Positions 34,954-57,906 of a stretch of 60,248 nt of DNA are shown here, piece by piece. Source of the DNA: Rhodospirillales bacterium. GTDB taxonomy: Bacteria; Pseudomonadota; Alphaproteobacteria; Dongiales; Dongiaceae. Positions within the stretch are counted from its first letter, which is position 1, and each line of letters begins with the position of its first letter. The stretch lies in the NCBI GenBank assembly GCA_009885795.1, contig VFKA01000021.1, forward strand, positions 1-60,248, given 5' to 3'. Made by a program: the position numbers and the translations under genes. The notes below the pieces were generated by a model. It had not been told where the DNA came from. It did no database searches and saw only the letters and a program-made list of their open reading frames with translations.

Positions 34954-35050
34954 TTTCCTGCCCGCCGCATTATTCCCATTGCATCGCCGGTATCGGATCG
35001 GCACCATCGTCGGCGGCCTTAGGCGGCGATAGCATCGGATGCGGGGGAAC

Positions 35051-36412: not shown

Positions 36413-36435
36413 GCTTGCGCCGATCAACGCCTCTG

Positions 36436-36525
36436 TCGTCCCGGCGAAGGCCGGGACCCATGGCGAAGCGGCTCGATGGATTCCGGCTGGAGTTTACCCC
36501 GGCGAAGGCCGGGGCCGGAATGACA
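36436..36525. repeat. Short palindromic repeats upstream of the TetR gene
   Basis: Two related units, GTCCCGGCGAAGGCCGGGACC at about 36438 (21 bases with flanks) and CCCCGGCGAAGGCCGGGGCC at about 36498, form hairpins GGCC/GGCC-type with the same CGAAGG loop. Such units are common in alphaproteobacterial intergenic DNA. They lie in the interval between the glutamine synthetase-like gene and the TetR start. Confidence 0.7.
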
Positions 36526-36563
36526 GACTTGAGGCATGGTGGGCGGAGGGGAGGGCCGGGCCG

Positions 36564-37226
36564 GTGGAAAGAAAGCGCGCCAGGAAATCGGGGCGGGCCG
36601 CCGACGGATCGCCCGATAGCGCCGAGAGGCTGCTCGCCGGCGCGCTCGAGCTGTTCGCGGCGCGCGACTTCGCCGCCGTCACCATCAAGGACATCGCCAA
36701 GGCGGCGGGGGTCACGACCGCGCTCATCTACTACTATTACGACGACAAGGAAGCGCTGTTCCGCGCCTCGCTCGAACATGCCGTGGCGCGGGCCTTGGAC
36801 AATTACCGGCATTTGCGCGAGAACCAACCCGACCCGGTCGGCCTGATCACCGATTGGCTCGAAACCAACGTCCAGTTCTCCAAGCCGATTCGCGAGTTGC
36901 TGAAGATCATGCTCGACTATCGCGGCTCGCGGAGCCAAAAGGCCGTGGTCGACCGCATCATCAAGCAATTCTACGACGAGGAATGTTCGATCCTCTCGAC
37001 CGCCATTCGCCAGGGCATCGAGCAAGGACTCTTCCGGCCGGTGGACCACGACCGGGCGGCGCTTTTCGCTTCGACCCAGATCGACGGCATCTTCGTGCGC
37101 TCGATGATCCACAAGAATTTCGATCTTGCCGCCGGCATGGCCACGTTCAAGGCCATGCTATGGGAGCATCTCGGATACCGCGGCCTGCAAGCCGTTCGCC
37201 AGCCGCCCGGCGCTCAGGCCGGATAG
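36564..37226 (+). CDS. TetR family transcriptional regulator
   Basis: About 220 residues, starting at GTG 36564 after a GGGCCGG-rich leader. The N-terminal helix-turn-helix is clear: SAERLLAGALELFAARDFAAVTI, with KDIAKAAGVTTALIYYYYDDK being the TetR recognition helix region (quoted in parts); the C-terminal ligand-binding domain has no recognisable specificity. Its 3' end overlaps the convergent DUF1116 gene by 13 bp. A palindrome suited to a TetR dimer lies in the promoter between the DUF1116 gene and the second glutamine synthetase-like gene (38505-38518), so these are its probable targets. Confidence 0.9.
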   Translation: MERKRARKSGRAADGSPDSAERLLAGALELFAARDFAAVTIKDIAKAAGVTTALIYYYYDDKEALFRASLEHAVARALDNYRHLRENQPDPVGLITDWLETNVQFSKPIRELLKIMLDYRGSRSQKAVVDRIIKQFYDEECSILSTAIRQGIEQGLFRPVDHDRAALFASTQIDGIFVRSMIHKNFDLAAGMATFKAMLWEHLGYRGLQAVRQPPGAQAG

Positions 37227-38482
37227 CGCTCGCGATAGGCCTGGACGGCGGATACGAAGCAGTCGAGCGAGGCGCTGACGACACCGGCGCCGATCTGGCC
37301 GCCGTCGCGCCCGGCGATGCCCGCATCCATGACCGGAACGATCCCGGTTTCCAGAACCTTGAAGATGTCGATGCCGGTGGGCGTTCCGCGATAACGCAGA
37401 AAAGGAATCTGGTAGTCCTTGTTCTCGCCGACCGTGATCTTGTAGAGGCTGAGATTGCGCTCGACCATGGCCTCCGGCGATCCCCCCTGATAGGCCTGGA
37501 GCGGGAACGCCGCGGCCTGGGCGAAACCGCCGAGCCCGATGGTCTCGGTGATCGTGCTCTCGCCGCCCATCCAGGTGATCTCGTCCTCGGTATGGCCATC
37601 GAACAGCTTGGCCTGGACGGTTGGGTGCGGCCCATTGATCCACGCATCGCCGAGCCCGCTGATGCGCATGGCGAAGGCCCGGCAGTTGATCGCGATGGCG
37701 CTGACCACGCTCGAGCCTTCGATGCCGTGCGCGGCGTCGGCGGTGGCCTTGCCGGCGGCCATCGACAGGCGCAGGAAGAAGTAGTGATCCGCGGTCATGG
37801 CGGCGACGGCTTCTTCCACGTCGGCCCGGCCGCCGCGCGCCAGCGCGAGCAAATGCGGCACCAGCTCGCGGGTGAGAAGGAGCGATGCAGCGGTGTTGCG
37901 GCTGTGCAGCTCGTCGCCCAGATGCAGCGCGCGCTTGATGATGGGCTTCAAGGGAATGCCGCCGGCCGCGCGCACGGCATCGCGCAAGACCGGAGCCACG
38001 ACATTGTTGACGTAAAGAAGGCGCTCGCGCACGCCCTCGTCATAAACACCATAGTTCAGGCGGCGCGGGTTGGTGCCCTCGTAGAAATTGCAATGGCCGA
38101 CGTTGCCGAAGGTGTCGTTGCGGACCACGAACACGGGCATCGAGGCCGTGTAGATTCCGGCCAGCGAACCGACGCAAGCATGGGCGTGGCAGCCATCGAC
38201 CTTGATCTCGCCCGCGGCAAGGCGGCGCTCGGCGCCGGCGCGGTCCGGCGCCAGGCCTTCGAAGAGGGCGCCGCCGATGATGGCGTCGCGCTGGCCGCCG
38301 ATATAGTCCTTCCAGGGCAGCGCCGGGCCCGAGGTCAGGATGGTCTCGCGCGTCATGCCGGGAAGCGCTTCGATGGCCGGGAGAATGTCCACCAGCACCG
38401 GCTCCGATTCGTTGAGGCGCCGGAACGCCTCTTGGTTCGCGCGCGCGCGCAAGGCCTCGCCACCCTTCCCCATGGCCGTCAT
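37214..38482 (-). CDS. DUF1116 domain protein (AllG/YlbE-like)
   Basis: A 422-residue protein of the DUF1116 family, whose Escherichia coli member AllG (YlbE) is a subunit of the oxamate carbamoyltransferase AllFGH in anaerobic allantoin breakdown. Recognisable stretches include GAIGGALFEG-like IIGGALFEGLAPD, DGCHAHACVGSLAGIYTAS, NEGTNPRRLNYGVYDEGVRE in part, and GHTEDEITWMGGESTITETIG. The usual partners (FdrA/AllF and AllH) are absent from the window. It is divergent from the second glutamine synthetase-like gene and next to the TetR gene. Function here is not established. Confidence 0.85.
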   Translation of the reverse strand: MTAMGKGGEALRARANQEAFRRLNESEPVLVDILPAIEALPGMTRETILTSGPALPWKDYIGGQRDAIIGGALFEGLAPDRAGAERRLAAGEIKVDGCHAHACVGSLAGIYTASMPVFVVRNDTFGNVGHCNFYEGTNPRRLNYGVYDEGVRERLLYVNNVVAPVLRDAVRAAGGIPLKPIIKRALHLGDELHSRNTAASLLLTRELVPHLLALARGGRADVEEAVAAMTADHYFFLRLSMAAGKATADAAHGIEGSSVVSAIAINCRAFAMRISGLGDAWINGPHPTVQAKLFDGHTEDEITWMGGESTITETIGLGGFAQAAAFPLQAYQGGSPEAMVERNLSLYKITVGENKDYQIPFLRYRGTPTGIDIFKVLETGIVPVMDAGIAGRDGGQIGAGVVSASLDCFVSAVQAYRERYPA

Positions 38483-38583: not shown

Positions 38584-39969
38584 ATGGCTAGGACAGTTTC
38601 GACGGCGGCGCATGGGTCCGGTGCCGGCAATTTGAAGGCCCTGCGCAAGGATCTCGAAGCCAAGGGCGTGCGCTTCCTGCTGGCGAGCTATGCCGACATC
38701 CATGGCGTGCCCAAGGCGAAGATGGTGCCGATCGACCATCTCGAACAGATGATGGCGGGATCGGAGCTCTTCACCGGCGCCGCTCTGGATGGCGTGCCCC
38801 AGGATGTGAGCGAGGAAGAAGTCTCCGCCCATCCCGACCCGGCGAGCTGCAAGATCCTGCCCTGGAAGCCGGACGTCGCCTGGTTCGCCTCCAATCTGTG
38901 GACCAGGGGCAAGCCGTTCGAGGCCTGCTCGCGCACCATCCTCGGCCGCATCATGGCGCAAGCGGCGGCGCTGGGCTTCGAGCCTAAGATGGGCATGGAG
39001 GCCGAGTTCTTCGTCCTCAAGGACAAGCCGGACGGCGGATTCGAACCGGTCTCGACCCGCACGCGCCTCGACAAATCCGCCTATGACGCGGCGCGCCTGC
39101 TCGACAACATGGATTGGATGGGCGAGCTGGTCACGATGATGAACGGCTTCGGCTGGGACGTCTATTCCTTCGACCACGAGGACGGCATCGGCCAGTTCGA
39201 GGTGGATTTCACCTACTTCAACATGACGACGATGGCCGACAATTTCGCGTTCTTTCGCATGATGGCGCATGAAGTGGCGCGCAAGCACGGGTACTTCGCG
39301 ACCTTCATGCCGAAGCCCTATCGCGACCGGGCCGGCAGCGGCGCGCATTTCAACATCTCGTTCGCCGATGCCAAGACCGGGCGCAATCTGTTCCACGACC
39401 CGGCCGACAAGCGCGGCTGCAAGCTTTCCAAGCTTGGCTATCAATTCATCGCCGGCGTGCTCCGCCATATGCCGGCGATCTGCGCCATGGTCGCCCCGAC
39501 CGTCAACAGCTACAAGCGCCTGGTCCTGCGCGGCAGCCAGTCGGGATTCACCTGGGCGCCGGTCTTCGTGTGCTATGGCGGCAACAACAGGACGAACACG
39601 CTGCGCATTCCGCTGGCGGGCGGGCGGGTCGAGCTGCGCGCCCCCGATTCGGCCTGCAATCCCTATCTGGGCGCGGCGCTGGTCCTGGCGGCGGGTCTCG
39701 AAGGCATCCGGAAGGATCTGGACCCGGGCGAGCCGCACACCGAGAATATGTACGTGAAAACCGAGGCGGAACTGAAGAAGATGGGGGTGGGCTACCTGCC
39801 CCAGAGCCTGGGCGAGGCGATCGAAGCGTTCGAGGCCGACCCCTTCACCAGGCAAGTCTTCGGGCCGGGCATGCACAAGGCGTGGCTCGACTATAAGAAG
39901 GCCGAGTGGGAGAGTTACTGCTATCATGTCTCGGACTGGGAATTGGCGCGCTACCTGAAACAGTATTGA
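38584..39969 (+). CDS. Glutamine synthetase family protein (type III/GmaS-like) 2
   Basis: A 461-residue paralogue of the gene at 35051. Key segments are KMGMEAEFFVL (about 137), GQFEVDFTYFNMTTMADN (about 203), GAHFNISFADAKTGRN (about 257), NSYKRLVLRGSQ (about 306) and RIPLAGGRVELRAPDSACNP (about 340). It is the first gene of a rightward set followed after 45 bp by a metallophosphoesterase and then an APC permease. Its promoter holds the palindromic operator. It probably makes a gamma-glutamyl amide from an imported amine; the amine is unknown. Confidence 0.9.
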   Translation: MARTVSTAAHGSGAGNLKALRKDLEAKGVRFLLASYADIHGVPKAKMVPIDHLEQMMAGSELFTGAALDGVPQDVSEEEVSAHPDPASCKILPWKPDVAWFASNLWTRGKPFEACSRTILGRIMAQAAALGFEPKMGMEAEFFVLKDKPDGGFEPVSTRTRLDKSAYDAARLLDNMDWMGELVTMMNGFGWDVYSFDHEDGIGQFEVDFTYFNMTTMADNFAFFRMMAHEVARKHGYFATFMPKPYRDRAGSGAHFNISFADAKTGRNLFHDPADKRGCKLSKLGYQFIAGVLRHMPAICAMVAPTVNSYKRLVLRGSQSGFTWAPVFVCYGGNNRTNTLRIPLAGGRVELRAPDSACNPYLGAALVLAAGLEGIRKDLDPGEPHTENMYVKTEAELKKMGVGYLPQSLGEAIEAFEADPFTRQVFGPGMHKAWLDYKKAEWESYCYHVSDWELARYLKQY

Positions 39970-40014: not shown

Positions 40015-40989
40015 ATGTTCTGGAAGAAGAAGGACGGCGGGGAGAAGATGGTGATCTTCTTCGCGAGCGATCTGCATGGCTCCAATGTCTGCTTCAAGAA
40101 GCTTCTCAACGCGGTCGAATTCTACGGCGCCAATGTCCTGGTCATGGGCGGCGACATGACCGGCAAGGCGGTCATGCCGATCGCCGAACAGGCGGACAGT
40201 ACGTGGCTCGCCTTTTCCGCCGGCGAGACCATCAAGCTCAAGTCCAAGACCGAGGTGGACGAGTTCATCAAGCGCACCGGCAATCAAGGCTTCTACCCGA
40301 CCGTGCTGACGGAAGCCGCGTATCGCGAGCTTTCCGAGAACGAGGAGCACCGGCACGAGCTGTTCAAGAAACTGGTGGTCGAGCGCGTGCGCGAATGGTG
40401 CACGCTCGCCGAACAGAAATTGCACGGCAAGAACGTGCCGCTGATCACCGCGCCCGGCAACGACGACTTCTTCGAGATCGACCCGATCCTGAATGCTTCG
40501 CCGGCGATCGATTATCACGAGATGGAAGTGACGAGCTTACGCGGTTACGAGATGTTGCACTGCGGCGGCTCGACCAAGACGCCATGGGACACCGAACGGG
40601 AATACACCGAGGACCAGTACCGCGAGCGGCTCGGCCATCTCTGCGCCCAAGTCAAGGACATGTCGCGCTGCATCTTCAACGTGCACGTGCCGCCGCATGG
40701 CACCATCCTCGACCAATGCCCGAAGCTCGACGACGATTTGCGGATCGTCTTCGAGATGGGCCAGCCGGTGCAGATGCACGCGGGCTCCAGCGAACTCTAC
40801 AAGACCATCGAGAAGCACCAGCCGCTGCTTGGCATACACGGACACATTCACGAGGGGCGCGGCCAGATCAAGATCGGCCGCACGGTGTGCGTCAATCCGG
40901 GCAGCACCTATCCCGAAGGGCTGCTGCAGGGCGTTCTCGTCACCTTGCAGGACGGCGCGATCAAGAACGTCAGTTTGACTCAAGGGTGA
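40015..40989 (+). CDS. Metallophosphoesterase (calcineurin-like)
   Basis: A 324-residue cytoplasmic protein with the calcineurin-like fingerprint: FFASDLHGSNVCFKKLL (D-x-H, about 18-20), VMGGDMTGKA (GGD, about 43), APGNDDFF (GND, about 147), NVHVPPHGT (H, about 223), and GIHGHIHEGRG (GHxH, about 277-279). All metal ligands are present. A long helical insertion separates GGD from GND. It sits 45 bp after a glutamine synthetase-like gene and 48 bp before an APC permease, an unusual company. Substrate unknown. Confidence 0.9.
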   Translation: MFWKKKDGGEKMVIFFASDLHGSNVCFKKLLNAVEFYGANVLVMGGDMTGKAVMPIAEQADSTWLAFSAGETIKLKSKTEVDEFIKRTGNQGFYPTVLTEAAYRELSENEEHRHELFKKLVVERVREWCTLAEQKLHGKNVPLITAPGNDDFFEIDPILNASPAIDYHEMEVTSLRGYEMLHCGGSTKTPWDTEREYTEDQYRERLGHLCAQVKDMSRCIFNVHVPPHGTILDQCPKLDDDLRIVFEMGQPVQMHAGSSELYKTIEKHQPLLGIHGHIHEGRGQIKIGRTVCVNPGSTYPEGLLQGVLVTLQDGAIKNVSLTQG

Positions 40990-41037: not shown

Positions 41038-42675
41038 ATGTCCAACATCAGTGGTACCGGGGGCGAGCAGCGCATCTTCCTGCGCAAGGCGTCGGGTCTC
41101 ATCAAGACCGCGAGCCTGACCGACACGCTCATCTACGACATCGGCGTCGTCAGCGTCGGACTGGGCGTCGGCACGATGATGTATTACGGGCCGGCCTTCT
41201 ATCCCGGCGGCGATTTGCTCTGGGGCTGCGTCATCGCCGGCTTCATGATGGCGCTCATCTGCCTCGGCATGATCACCTGGTCGGTGACGCTGCCGCGCTC
41301 GGGCGGTATCTATGTCTTCGGTTCGCGCTCTCTGCCGCCCTTCCTTGCCCATGCGATCAGCTTTGTCGAGATCTTCGCCTGGCTGTTCTATTGCGCGATC
41401 GCCGCCTTCTGGATCGTCCGGCTCGGGATCGCCCCGGCCTTCGCCATGATCGGCTACATGACCGGCAGCGTGACCTTCCAGGAATGGTCGGCCGCCCTTT
41501 ACGAGCCCCTCCCGACTTTCATCGTGGGTTCGATCATCCTCATCCTCTCCTCCATTGTCCTCACCATGGGGATGAAGGTCTTCCTGCTGACGCAGAAGAT
41601 CGTGTTCGTAGCGGCGATGCTGGGCTCGGCGCTTCTCATCATCGTCCTGCTGATGTACTCGAACGCGGATTTCATCGCGTCATTCAATGCGATGATGGGA
41701 CCGATCATGGGCGTCGACCAGCCCTACCAAGCCATCATCGCCTCGGCGGCGGCCAATCCCGGCGGCGCCTGGACGACCGAAGGCGCCGATATCTGGACCA
41801 CGATCAAGGTCTCCAACTGGGCGTTCCTGCCGCTGCTGGGCGCCGCCTTTTCGATTTCCATCGCCGGCGAGATCAAGTCGGTGGAGATGTCGCAGACCAT
41901 CGGCATGCTGGGCGCCATCGCCATCAACGTCGTCATCTGGCTTATCACGATCGCGCTGGCTAATTCGGTGTTCGGTTACGATTTCATCGGTTCGGCCGTC
42001 TATAATTACTGGGTGCCGGGCGAGGGCGTCATCACCACGCCGACCGATGCCTCGATCACCTTGCTGGCCGGCATCCTGACCCAGTCCTGGGTGATCGCCG
42101 TCCTGGTATCGATCGGGTTCATCACCTGGATATGGATGTGGATTCCGGCCATGCACACCTATGGCGTGCGTGCCGTCGTCGCCTGGTCCTTCGACCGCAT
42201 CGCCCCGGCGAAATTCGGGGAGATCTCGCAACAGACCCACACGCCGCAATTCTCGATCTGGGCGACGACGGCCTTGAACATCGTCTTCATGGCGCTGTTC
42301 TGCTTCACGGCGTTTTTCTCCACCGTGATCATCCTGATCGAAGCGGCGCTGCTGGCGTGGAGCATCGTGTTGCTCGCGGGAATCTTCTTCCCCTACACGC
42401 GGCCGCACATCTATGAGAAGTCGCCGATCGCCGGCAGAAAAGTCCTGGGGCTGCCGATCATGTCGGTCGCTTGCGCGCTGGGCTTCCTCGGCTCCCAATT
42501 CTATTTCTGGGTGCTGTTCTTCGATCCGACGGCGGCCGGACACGCGCCGGAGCAGTTGCAGCTCGTCGGCGGCGTCTTCGTCATCGCCATCGTCTGGTAT
42601 GCGGTCATGAAGGCCTACCAGCGCTCCAAGGGCATCGATGTGACGCTGGCCTTTAAGGAGATTCCGATCGAGTAA
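41038..42675 (+). CDS. APC family amino acid/amine permease
   Basis: A 545-residue transporter of the amino acid-polyamine-organocation superfamily with about 12-14 helices. The N-terminal FLRKASGLIKTASLTDTLIYD and TWSVTLPRSGGIYVFGSRSL segments are typical of the first helices, and GEIKSVEMSQTIG around helix 6-8. It has a strong GGGGGGCG purine-rich Shine-Dalgarno and is followed by a clear terminator at 42701. Proton- or sodium-coupled uptake of an amine or amino acid for the glutamine synthetase-like enzymes is inferred from the neighbours. Confidence 0.92.
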   Translation: MSNISGTGGEQRIFLRKASGLIKTASLTDTLIYDIGVVSVGLGVGTMMYYGPAFYPGGDLLWGCVIAGFMMALICLGMITWSVTLPRSGGIYVFGSRSLPPFLAHAISFVEIFAWLFYCAIAAFWIVRLGIAPAFAMIGYMTGSVTFQEWSAALYEPLPTFIVGSIILILSSIVLTMGMKVFLLTQKIVFVAAMLGSALLIIVLLMYSNADFIASFNAMMGPIMGVDQPYQAIIASAAANPGGAWTTEGADIWTTIKVSNWAFLPLLGAAFSISIAGEIKSVEMSQTIGMLGAIAINVVIWLITIALANSVFGYDFIGSAVYNYWVPGEGVITTPTDASITLLAGILTQSWVIAVLVSIGFITWIWMWIPAMHTYGVRAVVAWSFDRIAPAKFGEISQQTHTPQFSIWATTALNIVFMALFCFTAFFSTVIILIEAALLAWSIVLLAGIFFPYTRPHIYEKSPIAGRKVLGLPIMSVACALGFLGSQFYFWVLFFDPTAAGHAPEQLQLVGGVFVIAIVWYAVMKAYQRSKGIDVTLAFKEIPIE

Positions 42676-42774: not shown

Positions 42775-43560
42775 GTGACCGGCACCGCCCCCGATCTGCA
42801 TCTCGAATTCGTCGATGAAGCCCTGCGCCTCGTGCGCGAGGCCGAGGCCAAGGGCATTCGCCTGCGCATCCTGGGCTCGGTCGCCTACCGCCTGCAATGC
42901 CCGCGCAACGTGCATCTCTTCGAGGACATGGCCCGGGCTCTGACCGATGTCGATTTCGCCGCCGAGAAGAGCCAGAACCGCCAGATCAAGGACTTCATGG
43001 TGGCACAAGGTTACGTGCCGGAGGAGGGCGTCTTCGTCATTTCCGAAGGCAGCCGGCACGTATACTTGCACCCGAAAACGAATCTCAACGTCGACGTGTT
43101 CGCCGACGAACTCTATTTCTGCCACAAGGTGCCGTTCAAGGGCCGTCTCGCCATCGATTCGCCGACCATCTGCACCACCGATTTGTTGCTCGAAAAGATG
43201 CAGATCGTCGAGATCAATTTGAAGGATTTCAAGGACACGCTCGTCCTCATGCTCGAACATCCCCTGGGGTCGGCCCGCGACGGCAACAAACATATCGACG
43301 CCGATTACATCGTCGCCATGATGTCGAAAGATTGGGGCTTTTATTACACCTTCACCACCAATCTGCGCCGCGTGCCGGATTACATCAAGGAATTCCCGGC
43401 CATTACCGGTGCCGATGCCGACACCATCCGCGGCCGTATCGACGATCTGCTCCAGCGCATCGACCAAGCGCCGAAATCGTTGGGTTGGAAGTTGCGCTCG
43501 AAGATCGGCACGCGGGCGCTGTGGTACCAGGAAGTCTCGGAAAAAACCAAGCAGATGTGA
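42775..43560 (+). CDS. Nucleotidyltransferase-like protein
   Basis: A 261-residue protein from GTG 42775. The segment RLRILGSVAYRL followed later by LTDVDFAAEK fits the GS and DxD elements of the nucleotidyltransferase (MNT/aminoglycoside adenylyltransferase-like) fold, and NLNVDVFADELYF could give the third acidic residue. The remainder (LLEKMQIVEIN, KDFKDTLVLML) resembles uncharacterised nucleotidyltransferase domains. It follows the terminator, so it has its own promoter, and precedes a dispersed repeat. Role unknown. Confidence 0.75.
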   Translation: MTGTAPDLHLEFVDEALRLVREAEAKGIRLRILGSVAYRLQCPRNVHLFEDMARALTDVDFAAEKSQNRQIKDFMVAQGYVPEEGVFVISEGSRHVYLHPKTNLNVDVFADELYFCHKVPFKGRLAIDSPTICTTDLLLEKMQIVEINLKDFKDTLVLMLEHPLGSARDGNKHIDADYIVAMMSKDWGFYYTFTTNLRRVPDYIKEFPAITGADADTIRGRIDDLLQRIDQAPKSLGWKLRSKIGTRALWYQEVSEKTKQM

Positions 43561-43695: not shown

Positions 43696-44544
43696 ATGAA
43701 CCATCGCGATTTCCGCGCCCGCCAGCGTAGCCTCACCCTCGACGGTCTGGGTCCGCTCGACCTCAAGATCGCTTACACGGACGAGGGCGCCGGCGAACCG
43801 GTGCTGCTTCTTCACGGCATTCCGACCTGGTCCTATCTCTATCACGACGTGATCCCGCTGCTCGCGCCCGAGACCCGCGCCATCGCCCCGGATTTCCTGG
43901 GCCACGGATACTCGGACCGCCGCGACCGGTTCGACCGCTCGCTGGTGGCGCAGACGGCGATGATCCTGCGCTTCATGGATGCGCTCGGCCTCGACAAGGT
44001 GACGATCGTCGGCCACGACACCGGCGGCGGTGTCGCCCTCATCATGGGAATCCTGCACGGCGACCGGGTGAAGCGCCTGGTGCTCGCCAATGTCGTTGCC
44101 TACGATTCGTGGCCGATCGACGACATGATCGCGCTCGGCAACCCGCAATGGCGGGAGAAGACGCCCAAGGAGATCGCCGAATTCGTCGCCTCGGGCCTTC
44201 CCGACGGGCTCAGGAACCAAGACCGCCTCACGTCCGAGTTCCGCGAGGGCATCGTCGCCCCCTACAGCGATGAAGAGGGCAAGATCAGCCTCATCCGCAA
44301 CGCCAGCGCGCTCAACACCAATCACACCATGATGCTGGTGGACCGGCACAAGGAGATCGCGGCGCCGACGCTGGTGCTGTGGGGCGTTCACGATCCGTGG
44401 CAGAAGATCGCCGACGGCGAGCGCCTGGCGCGGGAGATTCCGGGCGCCCGGCTGGTGCGCCTCGAACACGCCTCGCATTGGCTCCAGCAGGATGCGCCCC
44501 AGGACTTCGCGGCCGAAATCCTGGCTTTCATCCGCGCGACCTGA
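43696..44544 (+). CDS. Alpha/beta hydrolase (haloalkane dehalogenase-like)
   Basis: A 282-residue alpha/beta hydrolase. VLLLHGIPTWSYLYHDVIP carries the oxyanion region, and VGHDTGGGVAL (about residue 100) has Asp as nucleophile, as in haloalkane dehalogenases and epoxide hydrolases rather than Ser. ASHWLQQDAP (about 257) gives the catalytic His. The acid may be in LVLWGVHDPW. Substrate is not known. It is convergent with the FMN reductase at the end of the leftward run. Confidence 0.88.
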   Translation: MNHRDFRARQRSLTLDGLGPLDLKIAYTDEGAGEPVLLLHGIPTWSYLYHDVIPLLAPETRAIAPDFLGHGYSDRRDRFDRSLVAQTAMILRFMDALGLDKVTIVGHDTGGGVALIMGILHGDRVKRLVLANVVAYDSWPIDDMIALGNPQWREKTPKEIAEFVASGLPDGLRNQDRLTSEFREGIVAPYSDEEGKISLIRNASALNTNHTMMLVDRHKEIAAPTLVLWGVHDPWQKIADGERLAREIPGARLVRLEHASHWLQQDAPQDFAAEILAFIRAT

Positions 44545-44554
44545 CGGAAGTTCG

Positions 44555-45229
44555 TCAGCGCCAGGTCGTCGGGAAGGATCGCTCGTCCTCGCCCCAGACG
44601 CGGCCGGCGCGCACCGAGTCCAGCTTGTAGTCGGTCTCCTTCACCAGGAAGAGGCGCCGGCCAAGCTCGCGGGCGTCTTCCAAGGGATTGGTCGGGTCGT
44701 CCTTGATCTCGCCGGTCTTGTTGCCGATGCCGGTGACGATTCCGGCCATGGTGTAATGAAGGTAACGGCTGAGTTCCTGGACCGACTGCACGATGCCGAG
44801 GCGCGCGGAGATGTTGTTTTCCTCGGCGCTCAGGGCCAGCGCCACGCGCTTATGCATCAGCCGGCGATGGACGTTCTCGCAATCGGGATAGGAGAGCGCG
44901 ATGTAGCAGAACATCCGGTCGAGGAAGTTCTTGAGGCCGGCCGACATGCCGTACCACCAGATCGGCGTCGCCAACACCAGCGCGTCCGCCGCCAGCACCT
45001 TGTCGAGGAATAGCGCGCGGTAGCCGTCCTCGATCGAGCACGAACCATCGGGGCGGCGGCATTCCCTGCAGTTGCGCAGCAAGCCCGAAACGTGATCGGG
45101 CAGATGAATGAGCTCCACCTTGTGCCCGGCTTGCGCCGCGCCTTCGAGTATGGCTTCGGCCAAGAGCGCCGAGTTGCCCCGCCGCCGCGGGCTCGAGCTC
45201 AGGCCGATGACGCGTTTACCTTCGCTCAA
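44555..45229 (-). CDS. NADPH-dependent FMN reductase-like flavodoxin-fold protein
   Basis: A 224-residue flavodoxin-fold protein with the FMN phosphate loop SSSPRRRGNSALLAE (about residues 11-25), a Cys-rich insert NCRECRRPDGSCSIED (about 53-68) and the flavin-binding TPIWWYGMSAGLKNFLDR (about 88-105). The start is TTG at 45229, overlapping the MetX-like stop as TTGA. It is the last gene of the leftward run that begins with hypB. Related proteins reduce quinones, azo dyes or iron; the role here is unknown. Confidence 0.87.
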   Translation of the reverse strand: MSEGKRVIGLSSSPRRRGNSALLAEAILEGAAQAGHKVELIHLPDHVSGLLRNCRECRRPDGSCSIEDGYRALFLDKVLAADALVLATPIWWYGMSAGLKNFLDRMFCYIALSYPDCENVHRRLMHKRVALALSAEENNISARLGIVQSVQELSRYLHYTMAGIVTGIGNKTGEIKDDPTNPLEDARELGRRLFLVKETDYKLDSVRAGRVWGEDERSFPTTWR

Positions 45230-46248
45230 CTGGCCAGCAGCTCCTTCAGCCTATCGTCCATGAACTTCACCGCCTCCTTGTCCCTGCCGCCGCCGGCGTA
45301 GTGGCCCCAGATGGAGGGGATCGGCCGCAAGGTCGCGTGCTTCATGCGCGCGACCTCGTACTCGTTGTCCTCGGGCGGAAAATAGAGGTCGGTCGAGCCC
45401 GGCATGACGAGGGCCTTGGCCTCGATCGCGCCCAGCGCCTTGCCGAAATCGCCGTTGTAGGTGCCGTTGGCACTTATGTCGCCATGCTGCCAGGTCCAGA
45501 TGAGGGCCAGCAGGTTGTTGGCGTCGCGCTGCAAGAACAACCCTTCCCACCAACCCACCAGAAAATCCTCGACCGAGGCGTAGCCCATCGTCTTGTAGAG
45601 TTCCTGGCGGTAGAAGGCCTGCGACAGCCCCCAGCCGGCCCACACCCGCGCCATGGCACGCAGGCCCACGGTCGGCGGTTTTTCGTACCAGCCGCCGTTC
45701 CAGGCGGCGTCCGCGGTCAAGGCCGCCTTGACGCCCTCGAGGAAGACGAAATTGTGATGCGAGGTGCGCGCCGAACCGCCGATGGCCGCCAGCCGCTCGA
45801 CCCGATCCGGAAACAGCGCCGCCCAGTGATAGGCCTGCTGCGCGCCCATGGACCAGCCGATGGCGAGCGCCAGGCGATCGACGCCGAATTTTTCGACCAG
45901 CAACCGGCGCTGGAGCATGACGTTGTCATGGATGGTGACGTTCGGGAACCGGGCCCGGTCGAAGGGCGGGGGCGTATTGCTGGGCGAGGACGACACGCCG
46001 TTGCCGAGCAGGTTGGGCACGATGATGAAGTACTTCTTCGGATCCAGCGCCATGCCCTCGCCGATCAGATATTCGTTGTCGCCATGCCGGCCCGAGTAGC
46101 GCGTCGGAAAAACAATGGCATTGCTGCGCTCGCGGTTGAGCGTGCCATGGCATTTGTAGGCGAGCTTCGCGTCGCGCAGCGTCAGCCCGCATTGCAGCAC
46201 GACATCGCCGGCCGCGAAGACGTCATGGTCGGGTGCTGGAACCGACAT
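45226..46248 (-). CDS. MetX-like alpha/beta hydrolase (homoserine acetyltransferase family)
   Basis: A 340-residue alpha/beta hydrolase of the homoserine O-acetyltransferase-like family: LRDAKLAYKCHGTLN, NAIVFPTRYSGRHGDNEYLI, NLLGNGVSSSPSNT and the nucleophile elbow AIGWSMGAQQAYHWA (about 129-143, Ser about 133). GSTDLYFPPEDNEYE holds the acid. It is one of several MetX-fold proteins that are not true MetX. It lies 12 bp after the 74-residue membrane protein gene and overlaps the reductase start. It may hydrolyse or acylate a product of the upstream ureohydrolases; this is inferred from context. Confidence 0.88.
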   Translation of the reverse strand: MSVPAPDHDVFAAGDVVLQCGLTLRDAKLAYKCHGTLNRERSNAIVFPTRYSGRHGDNEYLIGEGMALDPKKYFIIVPNLLGNGVSSSPSNTPPPFDRARFPNVTIHDNVMLQRRLLVEKFGVDRLALAIGWSMGAQQAYHWAALFPDRVERLAAIGGSARTSHHNFVFLEGVKAALTADAAWNGGWYEKPPTVGLRAMARVWAGWGLSQAFYRQELYKTMGYASVEDFLVGWWEGLFLQRDANNLLALIWTWQHGDISANGTYNGDFGKALGAIEAKALVMPGSTDLYFPPEDNEYEVARMKHATLRPIPSIWGHYAGGGRDKEAVKFMDDRLKELLAS

Positions 46249-46260
46249 GAAGATCGCCTC

Positions 46261-46485
46261 TCAGCGGCGGCTAGCCTTCCGGCGCGCTCGGGCGATACGC
46301 AAAGCCACGCAGCCGCCGATGACGACGAGGAGCGCGGTCACGTAGATGATCGCCTCCGAAGCATGGACCATTCCCGAGGCGTGCGGATGGCCGTGAACGA
46401 CGATGCCGGTATGGGCGCTGGCGGCGGTCGCGGCGACCGTTGCCGAAATGGACGCCAGTACGGCGGCGGTGCGTGCGTAATTCAT
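46261..46485 (-). CDS. Small His-rich exported membrane protein (74 aa)
   Basis: The product has a signal sequence ending ATAASA (about 23), then AHTGIVVHGHPHASGMVHASE, in which five or six histidines face the periplasm, then one membrane helix IIYVTALLVVIGGCVAL and a basic tail RRKASRR. It starts with ATG 46485 behind a GAGGAGG Shine-Dalgarno and lies 20 bp after the first ureohydrolase gene. No family is recognised. Since nickel chaperone genes head the same run, a role in nickel binding or import is a reasonable but unproven guess. Confidence 0.75.
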   Translation of the reverse strand: MNYARTAAVLASISATVAATAASAHTGIVVHGHPHASGMVHASEAIIYVTALLVVIGGCVALRIARARRKASRR

Positions 46486-46505
46486 AAGTCCTCCTCTGGG
46501 ATTTT

Positions 46506-47699
46506 TCACTTCTTCATGACCTTGGCGCGATGGCCGATCTTGCCCTCGACGCACATGGAACCGAGCGCATCGAGCATGACCCGGCAGGCGAGCTGGGCCG
46601 TGTTGTCGTTGACATCGTAGGGCGGGGCCACCTCGACAACCTCCATGCCGCACAAACCCTCGCGGGCGATGAGGCGCACCATCTCCAGCGCCTCGCGCGG
46701 CAGCAGGCCGCCCGGTTCCGGCGAGCCGGTTCCAGGCGCGAAGCCGGGGTCGATCGAATCGATGTCGAAGGAGAGATAGACGGCCTTGCAGCCCTTCCAG
46801 GCAAGCTCGAGCGCCATCTCCGCCGCCTTGGCCGGCCCGAGATCGGTGATATCGGTCATGGTCATGACCGAGGTGCCGCGGCGCTTGGCGACCACGGCGC
46901 CCGGCCGCGAGCCGTACCAGCCGCCGATGCCCATCTGGACCAGGTTCTCCGGCCGGCAATTGGGCAGGCCGACGTCGTGCATGTGGCTGTGGTCGCGGTG
47001 CGTGGACGTGGTGGGCTCGTGCGTCGTCCAGTACCAGGGCGTGGTGTGCATCCGCTCGTCCATGTCCTTTTCCTGGATGTCCAGGTGGCGGTCGATATGG
47101 ATGATGCCGACATTGCCGTCGATATGCGGGGCGATGCCGCGCACGTTCGGGAAGCCCAGCGAATGATCGCCGCCGCAGATGATCGGAAAGACGCCCGAGG
47201 TGAAGATGTGCGAGATCGCCCTGGTCACCTGGTCGAAGGTCTTTTCGATATTGCCGGGAATGACGAACACGTCGCCGGCATCGCAGAGATCGAGTTCCTC
47301 GTAGATGTCGACGGCGCCATCGACGGAGTAACCGTCATAGAGGGCCGAGATGCGCCGCACCGCTTGCGGGCCGAAGCGGGCGCCGGGGCGGTAGGTCGTG
47401 GCGGTGTCGAACGGCACGCCGACGAAGGCGGCCTCGTAGTTCTTCACCTTGCGCACGTCCTCGCAATAGGGCGCCTTCATGAAGGTGTTGATGCCGGCGA
47501 AAGCCGGCTGATGGCCGCGGCTGAAGAGCGAGATGGTGCGATCGACGACCGATGGGGCCGCCTCCAGGCCCAGTTTCAGAGACCGTTTGATCTCCTCGTC
47601 CTGCCTCTTGGTCGTGATGCGCGACAGGCGCTCGAGATTGCGGTTGCCCCGCAATTGATAACCTGTTGGCCCCTTGCCGCCCTTCTTGCCCGCCACCAC
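46506..47699 (-). CDS. Ureohydrolase (arginase/agmatinase superfamily), GdmH-like
   Basis: About 397 residues from GTG 47699, preceded by GGGGGGA about 8 nt upstream; the frame is open to TTG 47735. All metal ligands are present: GGDHSLG (His 179), the DRHLD motif (Asp 203, His 205, Asp 207) and SFDIDSID (Asp 312, Asp 314). IDRHLDIQEKDMDERMHTTP differs from the DAHxD of ordinary agmatinases and resembles nickel-dependent guanidine hydrolase. A His-rich insertion THRDHSHMHD (about 233-242) is notable. It ends the ureohydrolase set next to hypA/hypB. Substrate (guanidine or a substituted guanidine) is inferred. Confidence 0.88.
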   Translation of the reverse strand: MVAGKKGGKGPTGYQLRGNRNLERLSRITTKRQDEEIKRSLKLGLEAAPSVVDRTISLFSRGHQPAFAGINTFMKAPYCEDVRKVKNYEAAFVGVPFDTATTYRPGARFGPQAVRRISALYDGYSVDGAVDIYEELDLCDAGDVFVIPGNIEKTFDQVTRAISHIFTSGVFPIICGGDHSLGFPNVRGIAPHIDGNVGIIHIDRHLDIQEKDMDERMHTTPWYWTTHEPTTSTHRDHSHMHDVGLPNCRPENLVQMGIGGWYGSRPGAVVAKRRGTSVMTMTDITDLGPAKAAEMALELAWKGCKAVYLSFDIDSIDPGFAPGTGSPEPGGLLPREALEMVRLIAREGLCGMEVVEVAPPYDVNDNTAQLACRVMLDALGSMCVEGKIGHRAKVMKK

Positions 47700-47761
47700 G
47701 CTATGTCCCCCCAAGCTCCCTGATTCGGCGATCAATTCATAGCGGAGCGCCGCGCCGAAAA

Positions 47762-48820
47762 CTAGCGCCGCGGCGCCCTCGCCGCCTTGATGAGGTCGGT
47801 GCGGCGGAGCTTCGGGTCGATGACATCGCCCCGCTCCTTCGCCAGCGCCGCCATGATGCGCATGACCACGCAGGCCGCGAGCCGCGCCGCCGTGCCGCTC
47901 ACGTCGAAGATCGGGCAGAGCTCGGTCACGTCGATGACGCTAAGCCCCCCCTTGCCGGCGATCATGTCGGCGATGCGCATCATCTCGCGCGCCTCGACGC
48001 CGCCGGGCTCGGCCGCGGTGACGCCGGGTGCCGCGGACGCGTCCATCACGTTGAAGTTGAAGCTGAGATACTGCCCGGCGGTGCCGCTCCAGACCTTGTC
48101 CAAGGCCTCGGCGACCGGCGGATAGATGCCGTGATCCAGAAGCTCGAACATCGGATAGAAGCGGATGCGGCGCCGGCGCGCGAGATCGACATGGTCCTTG
48201 GGGTTCATGGAATTGCGGGCGCCGACATGGGCGACGTTGGCGGCGTCGAGGTTCTTCAATTCGGTGATGCGCGCGAGCGCGCAGACGCCGAGGTTGCGCT
48301 CGCCGGCCCAGCTATCCGCCATGTCGAGATGCGCGCCGAAATGGAGATAACCCATCCTCTTCCGCCCGAGGTGGTCGGAGAGCGCCTTGGCGCCGGCGAT
48401 GGAAATGGAGCGGTCGCCGCCGCAGAGGATGGGGACGAGGCCGGCCTTCAGGACTTCGCGCACCGCGCGATAGACGCGTTCGCGCGCCACGTCGGGACTG
48501 ACCTTGGGCATGGAAACATCGCCGCAATCGACGGCGGTGCCGTGAAGATCGACGCCGTATTCGAACCAATACGGAAAATACTCCTGCGAGGCGAGCCGAA
48601 ACTCGCGCGGGCCGTCCTCGGAGCCGGGCTTGCCGACGCTGCCTTCGTCGAAGGGCACGCCGAGGAAGGCGTAGCGCGCCCCGCTTTTCCGCAACGCCGC
48701 CACCTTCAACGGCACATGGGTCGAGCGCAGGAAGGTGAGTATGTTGGGCGCCCGGTAATTGTCGCCGGCATCGCCGCCCAAGGGCGAGAACAGATGGGCA
48801 TAGGCCTTGGCTGGATTCAT
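47762..48820 (-). CDS. Ureohydrolase-family pseudoenzyme lacking metal ligands
   Basis: A 352-residue ureohydrolase homologue in which the binuclear-metal site has decayed: GGDHS is GGDRS (Arg 137 for His), DAHxD is GAHLD (Gly 162 for Asp; His 164 and Asp 166 kept) and the DxD of the second motif is FNFNVMDAS (Asn 255 and Asn 257). The rest of the fold is well kept (AFLGVPFDEGSVGKPG, VPILCGGD, GARNSMNPKDH). It sits between two intact paralogues with 13- and about 60-bp gaps. It is likely a structural or regulatory partner subunit of the 48834 protein, not a free enzyme. Confidence 0.88.
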   Translation of the reverse strand: MNPAKAYAHLFSPLGGDAGDNYRAPNILTFLRSTHVPLKVAALRKSGARYAFLGVPFDEGSVGKPGSEDGPREFRLASQEYFPYWFEYGVDLHGTAVDCGDVSMPKVSPDVARERVYRAVREVLKAGLVPILCGGDRSISIAGAKALSDHLGRKRMGYLHFGAHLDMADSWAGERNLGVCALARITELKNLDAANVAHVGARNSMNPKDHVDLARRRRIRFYPMFELLDHGIYPPVAEALDKVWSGTAGQYLSFNFNVMDASAAPGVTAAEPGGVEAREMMRIADMIAGKGGLSVIDVTELCPIFDVSGTAARLAACVVMRIMAALAKERGDVIDPKLRRTDLIKAARAPRR

Positions 48821-48833
48821 CGCGGTGCTTTCC

Positions 48834-49901
48834 TTATGGCTTCAAGCCCTGGGAACGGAGCGTCGCGGCCCGCGAACCCAGGTAGTGGTAGATGACGTTG
48901 ACGGCGAGACGCACGCTCATCTGGCTCACGTCGAAGGTGGGGGCAAGCTCGACGAGATCGAGCACGTCGGCGCCGAACTCCCCGGCGATGCGGGCAAGCC
49001 GGATGGCCTCGCGCCCTTTGAGGCCGTAGCATTCGGGCGAGGTCGAACCCGGCATGCAGGCGATGTCGATCGAGTCCGTGTCCCAGGAGAAATAGACCGC
49101 ATCGGTGCCGCGCCAGGCCAGTTCGAAGATCTCGCGGGCGCAGGCGTCGATGCCGCGATCGACGACCTCGTTCATGGGAATGACGCGGATGTCGTTGTCG
49201 ACGTAGAAGTCCCACCAATCCTTCGGGTTGAGGCTGTTGCGCGAGCCCATATGGGCCATGTTCGAAGGCCCGCAATTGGGCAGTTCGAGGGCGCGCGTGG
49301 CGCCGGAGCAGTTGGTGATCTTGTTCCCCGCCCAATCGGGGCCGGCGTCGAGATGGGCATCGACGTGGAGATAGCCGATCTTGCCGGCCCTGGTGAAATG
49401 CGAAAGCGCGCGGGCGCCGGGGATGGGCAGGGAGTGATCGCCGCCGCACAGGATGACCTTGGCCCCGCCCGCCAGGCATTCGGTCACATACTTGTAGATG
49501 TAGTCTTGCGACTTCTTGTTGTTGCCCGGCACGGTCGGGATGTCGCCGCAATCGACGACGCGGAAGAAGGTGAGCAGATCCACGTCGTACTCGAACATGT
49601 AGGGGAAGTACTGGGTCGAGGCCTCGCGCACGCCCGACGCACCCTGCGAGGTGCCGGCGCGCACGATCTGGCCCTGGTCCCAGGGGGCGGCGATGAAACA
49701 GACCTTGGCGCCCATCTTGCGGATAGCGTGGCGGTCCGGCGGGCAATAGGGCGCGCCCATGAAGGTGGCAAGCCCGCGGGCGCGGAAGGCGCCATTGTGC
49801 TTCTTGGGCGAGCGGATGTGGTCGTCCCTGCCCGTCTGGCGCGCCGGTCCCTGGTGCTGGTGGGGAACGAAGTCCCAAACGTGCGTCTTGGCGGTCTTCA
49901 T
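48834..49901 (-). CDS. Ureohydrolase (agmatinase-like), metal-site intact
   Basis: A 355-residue ureohydrolase with the full set: CGGDHSLPIPG (His 156), LHVDAHLDAGPDW (Asp 181, His 183, Asp 185) and FSWDTDSIDIACMPG (Asp 274, Asp 276). It shares GSRNSLNPKDWWD with its inactive neighbour's ARNSMNPKDH, showing the two are close paralogues. ATG 49901 overlaps the hypA stop by 4 bp, tying it to the nickel chaperones. It is the probable catalytic subunit of a heteromer. The guanidino substrate is not known: agmatine, guanidinobutyrate, guanidine and substituted guanidines are all open. Confidence 0.9.
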   Translation of the reverse strand: MKTAKTHVWDFVPHQHQGPARQTGRDDHIRSPKKHNGAFRARGLATFMGAPYCPPDRHAIRKMGAKVCFIAAPWDQGQIVRAGTSQGASGVREASTQYFPYMFEYDVDLLTFFRVVDCGDIPTVPGNNKKSQDYIYKYVTECLAGGAKVILCGGDHSLPIPGARALSHFTRAGKIGYLHVDAHLDAGPDWAGNKITNCSGATRALELPNCGPSNMAHMGSRNSLNPKDWWDFYVDNDIRVIPMNEVVDRGIDACAREIFELAWRGTDAVYFSWDTDSIDIACMPGSTSPECYGLKGREAIRLARIAGEFGADVLDLVELAPTFDVSQMSVRLAVNVIYHYLGSRAATLRSQGLKP

Positions 49902-50263
49902 GCCAGGAGTCTTTCCCTATGGTCGGCCAGCTCGATCGCGGCCAGCTGCATCTCGCGCCCGGTCACCACCTTGGGCGTCGGGCGGCCGCAATCCGGGCAG
50001 CGGAAATTGTGCAGCGCGCGCGGCGTCTTCACCGCGTCGCAATGGGCGCACTTGACGGTCAACGGCACTTCCTCGATGTGGAGGTTGGCGCCTTGGCAAA
50101 GCGTGCCGCGCGATGCCGGCCCCCAGCAGAAATAGAGCGAGCGGGCGATGCCGCAGAGGACGCCGAGGCGGATATCGACCCGCGCCACCCGGCCCCCGCC
50201 GTTGCGGGCGGCGTGGTCGCAAGCCAACTCCACGAGACTGGTGGCAATGGTAAGCTCGTGCAT
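49898..50263 (-). CDS. hypA: HypA-like nickel metallochaperone
   Basis: A 121-residue nickel-insertion protein. The N-terminus MHELTIATSLVELACDHA holds His 2 (Ni ligand with the N-terminal residues), and the zinc knot is CAHC (72-75) and CPDC (89-92). Genuine HypA works with HypB for hydrogenase or urease; no such enzyme is near. Here the gene overlaps an arginase-family gene by 4 bp and sits 4 bp after hypB. ATG 50263 fixes the family start. It likely loads nickel into the adjacent ureohydrolases. Confidence 0.92.
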   Translation of the reverse strand: MHELTIATSLVELACDHAARNGGGRVARVDIRLGVLCGIARSLYFCWGPASRGTLCQGANLHIEEVPLTVKCAHCDAVKTPRALHNFRCPDCGRPTPKVVTGREMQLAAIELADHRERLLA

Positions 50264-50267
50264 GATG

Positions 50268-51077
50268 TCAGCGCGCGTCCCTGATCCAGTCGAGCCAGGC
50301 AAGCATGCCCTCGCCCGACCGCGCCGAGAGGGTAAGGACCTCGAGGCCGGGGTTGACCGACCGCGCGCGCTCGACGCAGGCCGCCACGTCGAAATCGACA
50401 TGCGGGAGGAGGTCGAGCTTGGAGACGAGCAGGAGATCGGCGGCGGCGAACATGTCGGGGTATTTGACCGGCTTGTCGTCGCCCTCGGTGACGGAGAGGA
50501 TGACCACCTTGCGCCCCTCGCCCAGGTCGAAGCCGGACGGGCAGACGAGGTTGCCGATGTTCTCGATGAAGAGCAGCGCGCGGTCGGCGAGCGGCAGGCT
50601 GGTCATCGCCTGGCCGACCATGTGGGCGTCCAGGTGGCAGCCGCGCCCGGTGTTGATCTGGACCGCGGGGGCGCCGGTGGCGCGGATGCGCTCGGCGTCG
50701 TTCGAGGATTCCTGGTCGCCCTCGACGACCATGATCGGCGCCTCGCCCTTCAGGGCCTCGATGGTCTTGACCAGGAGCGTGGTCTTGCCGGCGCCGGGGC
50801 TCGACATCAGGTTGAGCGCGAGGATGCCGTGGCCGGCGAGCCGGGCGCGGTTCTCCTCGGCGAAGGCCTGGTTCTTCGACAGGATATCCTGTTCGATCCG
50901 CACCAGCCGGTCGCCGCCGTCCGTGCCGGGGAAATGGATGGGCCGGGTCGGCTGGGGCGGGGCGTCATGGGAGAGGTGATGGTGGTGATGATGGCCGGCG
51001 GCGGGGTGCGCAGGGACGGGCGCAAGCGCGCCTTCGATCCGAACTTCCTCGGCGCCGCAGCCGCATACCGCGCACAT
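50268..51077 (-). CDS. hypB: HypB-like nickel-binding GTPase
   Basis: A 269-residue SIMIBI GTPase. The N-terminus MCAVCGCG (Cys 2, 5 and 7) is the high-affinity nickel motif, and a run of six His (29-34) adds nickel storage. Walker [10 protein letters not shown] is at about 92-100, followed by [14 protein letters not shown] and the [14 protein letters not shown] segments (metal Cys) and NVSKLDLLP-like VSKLDLLPH. It heads the leftward eight-gene run ending at 44555. A promoter should lie in the 55 bp before rsmD's divergent start. Confidence 0.93.
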
Positions 51078-56966: not shown

Positions 56967-57470
56967 TCACACACGCCCGTGCATCGCCGCTCGCACTTCC
57001 GCCAGCGTCACCATGAGCGTCATCGGATCGAGCGGCGAGGGGTCGAAGCCGAGCGCCGTGTAGAAGGCGCTGGCCTGGTCCGAGAGCGCGTGGACGAGGA
57101 TGCCGCGCACGCCGATCGAATCGGCGGCGTTGAGGATTCGAGAGGCGGCGTCGCGGAAGAGCGCGCGCCCCAATCCCCGCCGCTGCCAGGCGCGATCGAC
57201 GGCGAGGCGTCCGAGGAGGACGGCCGGAATCGGGTCCGGCATGTTGCGGCGAAACCGGCCCGGCGCGGCGGCGATGGCGACGGCGCCGGAAGCAAGCGAA
57301 TAGTAGGCGACCGCTCTCTCGTCCTCAGCAACGACGAAGGTGCGGGACGCGCCGCTCGCCTGATTGGGCCTAGCACGGCGCTTCAACCATTCGTCGAGCG
57401 ATGGTACGCCCGAGTCGAAGCCGTCGAGAAGGTGATGGGGGCCAAGCGGTTCGGGTGCCGCGAGCGTCAC
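56967..57470 (-). CDS. GNAT acetyltransferase toxin (TacT/AtaT-like)
   Basis: A 167-residue GNAT protein from GTG 57470. It begins VTLAAPEPLGPHHLLDGFDSGV and has SLDEWLKRRARPNQASGASRTFV, YYSLASGAVAI, then the acetyl-CoA-binding region LLGRLAVDRAWQRRGLGRALF (Q/RxxGxG/A) and FYTALGF. This matches the type II toxin acetyltransferases that block tRNA aminoacyl groups. It overlaps the DUF1778 antitoxin stop by 4 bp (GTGA), the expected order antitoxin-toxin. Confidence 0.88.
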   Translation of the reverse strand: MTLAAPEPLGPHHLLDGFDSGVPSLDEWLKRRARPNQASGASRTFVVAEDERAVAYYSLASGAVAIAAAPGRFRRNMPDPIPAVLLGRLAVDRAWQRRGLGRALFRDAASRILNAADSIGVRGILVHALSDQASAFYTALGFDPSPLDPMTLMVTLAEVRAAMHGRV

Positions 57471-57754: not shown

Positions 57755-57906
57755 GGCGATCTCCTTCGCGCCGGAGCATGACACGGCGTAGCGACAATGT
57801 CATTACGGCTGTCGGATGGAAAAGGGAAGCGTCCCCTTTACCCGCTTTCCACCGAAATGCCCGGAGTTCGCTGACAATCGCCGCGACTTACGGTATCGAT
57901 TGCCGC

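Follow-up and report, generated by a model that had tools for sequence, protein, structure and literature searches.

What does a bacterium do with the nickel chaperones HypA and HypB when their genes are joined, in a single run, to three ureohydrolase-family genes? We examined this question in a 60,248-nucleotide stretch of DNA (hereafter the window) from contig VFKA01000021.1 of a Rhodospirillales bacterium (assembly GCA_009885795.1; contig C52 of its genome, the completeness of which is 99.89), for which a prediction made from the sequence alone had proposed an eight-gene leftward run from hypB to an FMN reductase gene. The eight genes are confirmed, all on the minus strand and consecutive from 51077 down to 44555, in the order hypB, hypA, three ureohydrolase genes (U1, U2 and U3), a gene for a 74-amino-acid protein, a MetX-like gene and a reductase-like gene. 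They are packed more tightly than the gaps of up to about 60 bp originally given, with intergenic gaps of 4, 13, 26, 20 and 12 bp and two 4-bp overlaps. Their products fall into the families CobW/HypB, HypA, Arginase (three times), Abhydrolase_1 and FMN_red, with no family for the 74-residue protein. As the best explanation, and with moderate confidence, we propose that this locus forms an operon for the nickel-dependent breakdown of methylated guanidines, in which U3 would split monomethylguanidine to methylamine and urea. Its hypA/hypB-alpha-beta block is known; what is new is the U3 clade with its methylamine-linked module, joined here in one run to a pair of the dimethylguanidine hydrolase (DmgH) type.

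The first two ureohydrolases, U1 (48834..49901, minus strand, overlapping hypA by 4 bp) and U2 (47762..48820, minus strand, after a 13-bp gap), correspond to the alpha and beta subunits of DmgH. Against the Protein Data Bank (PDB), U1 scored 652.6 bits to 8ryi_B (listed as an agmatinase family protein) and 643.5 bits to 8snf_D (metformin hydrolase subunit A), and U2 scored 616.9 bits to 8ryi_C, which is also listed as metformin hydrolase subunit B. All six metal ligands are kept in U1, the predicted catalytic subunit, while four of the six are changed in U2 (to R, G, N and N), a degenerate and presumably metal-free partner. The original description of three ureohydrolases is thereby corrected in one point, the middle protein being a degenerate subunit. 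In a 75-row tree U1 fell among 27 alpha rows and U2 among 27 beta rows (100/100 each), and each grouped in an eight-member set whose other rows are five from Aminobacter and two from Hyphomicrobiales (100/98 in either case). U1 is 74.1% and U2 75.8% identical to the subunits of the Aminobacter niigataensis DSM 7050 pair (locus L027), which hydrolyses dimethylguanidine and depends on nickel, HypA and HypB (PMC11399263). A Hyphomicrobium pair, at 70%/68% to DmgH, is also active (PMC11399263), and the hypA/hypB-alpha-beta class is published as an alpha2-beta4 nickel enzyme (PMC11399263, PMC11271267, PMC11647477).

We conclude that U1 and U2 are a DmgH-type pair, a new member of this published nickel system, for which dimethylguanidine hydrolysis and a hexameric assembly are predicted. 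The window shares with the DSM 7050 locus hypA/hypB followed by alpha and beta at 74%/76% identity, the six alpha ligands, the degenerate beta subunit and the Ser-Thr-Ser loop of the alpha subunit (PGSTSPECY in U1); hypA and hypB lie directly upstream of U1 and U2, as the DmgH/MefH class requires. It differs in that the run goes on into a GdmH-like ureohydrolase (GdmH being guanidine hydrolase), a small HupE-like protein, a MetX-like protein and a reductase, and in that urease is encoded on another contig of the genome, whereas in Aminobacter it lies downstream of the cluster (PMC11399263). With the pair assigned to the DmgH type and its hypA/hypB-alpha-beta block known from earlier publications, novelty is confined to the third ureohydrolase and its module.

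This third protein, U3 (46506..47735, minus strand, 26-bp gap to U2), is a GdmH-like ureohydrolase of a separate clade and a predicted methylguanidine hydrolase; its first residues are uncertain, since the frame opens with a TTG start and its relatives begin later. Its best PDB relatives, 7esr/7oi1 and 9fek, are listed as (putative) agmatinase 2 and are the guanidinases of Synechocystis (Sll1077) and Nitrospira inopinata (PMC11410670). Of 385 genomes drawn from the class, 13 had a U3 match at E 1e-100 or better, comprising the window, one protein at 79%, one partial protein at 75% and ten at 57-62% identity. Further U3-type proteins were found at 91% in genome G001 (locus L076) and at 76% in locus L035, giving a clade of five (window, L076, L061, L035 and L062). 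G001 was the one new case among 17 genomes of the same order, and nothing new came from 398 genomes of the phylum, one genome of the order of genome G094, or a second class draw of 382. We compared the clade with 12 canonical GdmH proteins, from the ten class-draw genomes (L063-L072) and two of 11 plasmid hits (L073 and L074). The contig-end-truncated L062 protein was left out of the tree and of the count at position 313 described below, and a distant homolog in L035 was also left out of the tree. The four full U3 proteins form one set (100/98) beside the 12 canonical GdmH proteins (98/97), and the clade appears to be new and undescribed.

Two features separate the clade from canonical GdmH. 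At the position of Trp313 of the Nitrospira enzyme, all four full U3 proteins carry Ser or Thr (Ser338 in the window, codon 46722..46724, minus strand), compared with Trp in 12 of 12 canonical proteins. This tryptophan is required for assignment as a guanidinase and, together with Thr105, sets guanidine specificity (PMC11410670). Second, a His-rich insertion of 17-21 residues ending in H-x-H-M-H-D is present in all five U3 proteins and in none of the 12 canonical ones, six or seven residues past the conserved His222 equivalent. In the window it covers residues 237-254 in TTG-start numbering (46974..47027, minus strand), ends in HRDHSHMHD and extends about 17 residues beyond canonical GdmH. This placement refers to the sequence; the predicted structure lacks confidence at the insertion. 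In the alignment, position 313 corresponds to residue three of the DmgH/MefH loop, a site that has been studied by mutation (PMC11399263). The exchange of Trp for Ser or Thr would make the U3 site roomier.

Could U3 nonetheless be a plain guanidine hydrolase beside DmgH, turning guanidine into ammonia and urea? Its two best structural matches are characterised guanidinases, it is 57-62% identical to the canonical GdmH relatives of the class, and it retains all six metal ligands and the equivalents of T105, H222 and E344 (T113 and H230 for the first two). Against this stand the loss of the tryptophan on which the published classification depends, the conserved extra residues of the clade and the methylamine-type genes around it. 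Moreover, guanidine-I riboswitches at the Rfam gathering score accompany 8 of the 12 canonical loci and none of the five U3 loci (Fisher p 0.029), including the window, a contrast between related loci in which four of the 12 canonical loci are likewise without one and L068 and L062 have less than 3 kb of upstream sequence. We therefore regard plain guanidine hydrolysis as unlikely. Calling U3 a GdmH expresses its ancestry and probable metal, and not its substrate, because it lacks the Trp313 of the published criterion; the original placement of a GdmH in this run is thus borne out by descent and fails at that residue. U3 is a GdmH relative, apparently retuned for another, probably methylated, guanidine. 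With methylguanidine, the Nitrospira guanidinase released no urea that was detected (PMC11410670).

The canonical loci also have a layout of their own. In 12 of 12, gdmH has ABC transporter genes immediately upstream, an arrangement that the window does not share, and in ten (L065-L074) the protein encoded behind gdmH has a shared tail (approximately FxxGFRAAxDKxxFLRLAGxPF) and mostly a His-rich head, making it a candidate nickel chaperone for guanidine hydrolase. An unexpected Rfam match in L067 (2864-3148, 104.7 bits) is to the 5' ureB small RNA RF02514, a Helicobacter RNA.

Methylguanidine is favoured as the substrate of U3 because its hydrolysis yields, besides urea, methylamine, which genes of the kind found near U3 take up. 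Two GS-III-type ligases are encoded on the plus strand of the window, at 38584..39969 (over the GS-III cut-off) and 35039..36412, and the best solved relative of both is the glutamate-methylamine ligase 9qur, at 386 bits (next 305) and 331 bits (next 247), respectively. In L061, U3 is followed by an isochorismatase-type gene and by three genes whose products have GATase, GXGXG and Glu_synthase domains, the composition of N-methylglutamate synthase. Relatives of these synthase genes (the largest at 84%) occur on contig C100 of the window's own genome, beside a GS-like ligase. The likeness to the N-methylglutamate pathway thus covers both the ligases and the synthase-like genes, whereas in Aminobacter MD1 the pathway and metformin hydrolase are on separate replicons (PMC9699525). 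That strain grows on metformin-derived dimethylamine, with induction of its dimethylamine and methylamine (N-methylglutamate-pathway) genes (PMC9699525). In openly licensed literature we found no report of the N-methylglutamate pathway beside a ureohydrolase gene.

The surroundings of U3 recur apart from the pair. At the G001 locus (L076) neither hypBA nor an alpha-beta pair accompanies U3, but the window's cluster is otherwise largely preserved, including relatives of the AllG-family protein (73%), the 38584 ligase (76%), a calcineurin-like phosphoesterase-related protein (40015..40989, plus strand, below the Pfam cut-off; 75%), an amino-acid/APC-type permease (41038..42675, plus strand, PF13520; 66%), a protein without assigned family or Pfam match (42775..43560, plus strand; 66%), an alpha/beta hydrolase (84%) and the MetX-like protein (67%). 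A TetR regulator is present as well (in the window within the frame 36216..37226, plus strand, with PF00440 at residues 139-184 and the true start downstream), while neither the reductase nor the small protein is kept. In all four other loci U3 is preceded by a LysR regulator, of one family throughout, with a solute-binding gene between them in L061, and it is in this place that the window has hypBA-alpha-beta. L035 holds, within 14 kb, hypB-hypA-alpha-beta, an ABC transporter, TetR, LysR, U3, a putative nickel/cobalt-type transporter and a convergent MetX-like gene. We assign that transporter from a HALEADH motif; it has no Pfam match and a very weak NCBIfam match. There, hypBA-alpha-beta and U3 both fall within 12 kb, so that the two modules co-occur in two of the genomes seen. 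Among these genomes, hypBA-alpha-beta is joined to U3 in an unbroken run in the window alone.

The remaining genes of the run are less readily placed. The 74-residue protein (46261..46485, minus strand, 20-bp gap to U3, no Pfam match) shows an AHTG...H stretch, a single hydrophobic span and a basic tail, besides what appears to be a signal peptide. No homolog was found in plasmids at E 0.01, and the loci compared gave weak local matches at best, with look-alikes by position and layout behind canonical gdmH in two of 12 loci (L065 and L074); a longer protein behind gdmH in L073 is presumably HupE-like, judging from its sequence pattern. Position and layout suggest that the small protein may be a nickel-supply accessory. 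The MetX-like alpha/beta hydrolase (45226..46248, minus strand, 12-bp gap to the 74-residue gene; PRK07581 subfamily, 534 bits, over the cut-off) has relatives in the U3 loci L035 and L076 and the alpha-beta loci L026, L030, L034 and L035. It overlaps by 4 bp the gene for an NADPH-dependent FMN reductase/flavodoxin-like protein (44555..45229, minus strand, PF03358/PF02525), of which a 50% identical relative lies near U3 in L062. Beyond the run, a lone AllG-family protein (37214..38482, minus strand, PF06545, 234 bits) recurs in the alpha-beta loci L022, L030, L034 and L040 and in L076; AllG is the family of an oxamate carbamoyltransferase subunit. The convergent neighbour of the operon, an alpha/beta hydrolase (43696..44544, plus strand), has a 72% relative in L030.

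Such genes raise a second alternative, in which the substrate of U3, and perhaps of the pair too, would be a larger or acylated guanidino compound first released by the MetX-like and other alpha/beta hydrolases, with AllG and the reductase in the same route. The recurrence of MetX-like and AllG-like genes at U3 or alpha-beta loci, the alpha/beta hydrolase directly after beta in L030 and the roomier site suggested for U3 are in keeping with this idea. However, MetX-like and AllG-like genes each occur in just 4 of 25 alpha-beta loci, and dimethylguanidine is the substrate of those DmgH enzymes that were tested (PMC11399263), which leaves the larger compound quite unlikely.

Is the locus a nickel system at all? 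HypB (50268..51077, minus strand) is a nickel GTPase with a His-rich N-terminus that matches TIGR00073 at 287 bits, over its cut-off, and HypA (49898..50263, minus strand, 4-bp gap to hypB) is a nickel metallochaperone that starts with MHELT and matches PF01155 at 90 bits, with 83 bits to TIGR00100, slightly below the cut-off of 88.1. In line with the original statement that no hydrogenase or urease genes stand alongside, the NiFe-hydrogenase large subunit (PF00374) has no match in the whole genome, including the window (a control search matched 5 of 14 genomes), and the single urease alpha match (PF00449) is on contig C71, which does not fit a hydrogenase or urease maturation cluster. The window's HypB is the one in the genome over the cut-off, with a second match on C62 below it (85 bits). 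Experiments in Aminobacter and Pseudomonas showed that this hypA/hypB-alpha-beta block depends on nickel and on HypAB (PMC11399263), which makes nickel use by the locus likely. Were the three proteins instead manganese enzymes of the agmatinase/arginase type, with HypA and HypB serving another enzyme, their distant similarity to agmatinase models would be explained; this is highly improbable given that no hydrogenase was matched, that the Aminobacter block is nickel-dependent (PMC11399263) and that all three proteins, at 123.7, 112.1 and 158.5 bits, stay under the agmatinase cut-off (TIGR01230, 174.3 bits).

We give almost no credence to the pair being a metformin hydrolase. U1 and U2 are homologous to MefH/MetCaCb and two related pairs show trace metformin activity (PMC11271267), but the U1 loop is Ser-Thr-Ser and not Asn-Ser-Ala, U1 has Ala where MefH has Cys184, and DmgH pairs either did not hydrolyse metformin (PMC11399263) or turned it over about 20,000-fold more slowly (PMC11271267). 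What MefH, MetCaCb and MfmAB share with the window is the paired architecture with chaperones (PMC11399263, PMC11271267, PMC11647477); the Asn-Ser-Ala loop and Cys184 are missing from U1. The metformin-hydrolase logic of the original prediction accordingly survives as an architecture, with a loop of the DmgH type.

How general is the known block? A scan of genome contigs with the beta alignment gave 26 loci, of which 25 (L022-L046) encode alpha and beta and one (L047; partial beta, no alpha) was excluded; L031 and L020 (G001) are one contig, which entered the tree and residue table as L020 and the count as L031. At thresholds that we set for neighbouring genes (HypA 90, HypB 200, MetX-like and AllG 300 bits), HypA was found near 23 and HypB near 21 of the 25 pairs, an association that is not due to chance. 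Of the four loci without HypB, L039 and L041 end at a contig edge, and L028 and L034 are without both HypA and HypB. L028 (6959-11032) has alpha and beta about 1.8 kb apart, unlike other pairs, with no Hyp genes found in its 21 kb; the beta gene of L045 (8917-10003) is matched in two overlapping frames, as in a frameshift; and the compact L030 (652-7484) has AllG-like and MetX-like genes diverging from hypB-hypA-alpha-beta-alpha/beta hydrolase. The alpha loop is STS in the window and seven of the 25 loci, TTA in seven and TSC in 11; in the literature consulted, STS (DmgH) and NSA (MefH) alone are tied to activity (PMC11399263). The window's own genome carries a second alpha-beta pair on contig C60 (L009, 10617-17256), with an ABC transporter and a GS-III-type ligase, again with 9qur as best solved relative (260 bits), and with no HypA or HypB match within 20 kb. 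Its loop is TTA, perhaps pointing to another substrate, and every locus with a C60-type ligase or solute-binding gene has the TTA loop. As the only HypB over the cut-off, that of the window may have to serve both pairs.

These results suggest a scheme in which HypA and HypB would load nickel, U1 and U2 would assemble, by homology, as an alpha2-beta4 hydrolase that converts dimethylguanidine to dimethylamine and urea, and U3 would release methylamine and urea by hydrolysis of monomethylguanidine or of some similar small N-alkylguanidine. The methylamine could then be captured by enzymes resembling glutamate-methylamine ligase and those of the N-methylglutamate pathway, encoded beside the locus and elsewhere in the genome, and the urea would pass to the urease on another contig. 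The scheme starts from gene order, orthology, residues, clade, neighbours and genome inventory, all observed directly. From them we infer nickel occupancy, complex formation, all substrates and co-transcription.

Several points weigh against this scheme. It is drawn from sequence comparison and gene context, and the loss of the tryptophan says that U3 is not guanidine-specific, not which substrate it uses. The clade has few members, five with one incomplete, and a structure prediction for U3 (28-row alignment), mostly confident in the core, falls below pLDDT 50 at residues 220-248; the limits of the riboswitch contrast belong here too. The synthase link comes from one genome (L061) and the ligase link from two (the window and G001), and the GS-III ligase genes are on the opposite strand, outside the operon. 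For the dimethylamine step the sole family searched for was PF11927, presumably that of dimethylamine monooxygenase; it has no match in the genome, so this one search revealed no way onward for dimethylamine. The scheme leaves the MetX-like protein and the other alpha/beta hydrolases without a role, and likewise the reductase and AllG; the rarity of MetX-like and AllG-like genes among alpha-beta loci counts here as well. Finally, the slow metformin turnover was seen in two DmgH-related pairs (alpha 93.8% and 71.2% to MetCa; PMC11271267), and MfmAB has some activity with cobalt and manganese, at least 5% of the nickel level (PMC11647477).

Overall, the original observation is confirmed and its first interpretation partly supported. 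The logic of nickel chaperones with an active and an inactive ureohydrolase was right. By contrast, the extra genes are not confined to this locus: MetX-like, AllG-like and GS-III ligase genes also accompany U3 or alpha-beta pairs in some other genomes, and a reductase relative (L062) and small-protein look-alikes (L065, L074) were found in other loci. Elsewhere in the window, 54964-55890, about 4 kb to the right of the operon, resembles an IS1595-type transposase, and overlapping frames at 56967-57803 resemble a GNAT toxin with a DUF1778-type antitoxin.

More tentatively, U3 may be the founding member of a new family of nickel-dependent hydrolases acting on monomethylguanidine, marked by a His-rich loop close to the active site, and together with DmgH, HypAB and an N-methylglutamate-type pathway it could make up a complete natural route for methylated guanidines. 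Searches of the openly licensed PubMed Central literature found no report of a methylguanidine hydrolase, a weak absence given that scope, nor a related report linking methylguanidine with N-methylglutamate. The MgdH/MgdL system of Vreelandella shares the presumed substrate methylguanidine and differs in that a dioxygenase and a lyase remove the methyl group, within a guanidine carboxylase operon and with no nickel ureohydrolase (PMC12508155). If true, our proposal would place a hydrolytic route for methylguanidine beside this oxidative one, and would supply a residue rule (Trp versus Ser/Thr plus the extra residues) for sorting database entries named 'agmatinase'. The authors of the DmgH study considered the reason for a dimethylguanidine-specific bacterial enzyme unclear, the compound not having been found in biological systems at that time (PMC11399263). 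A locus in which DmgH stands with another ureohydrolase of different tuning and with methylamine-type genes offers a testable answer, namely that methylated guanidines serve as a natural nitrogen source for which a nickel pathway is dedicated, and, if this holds, the locus would show in what natural context dimethylguanidine hydrolase, proposed as the ancestor of metformin hydrolase, came about.

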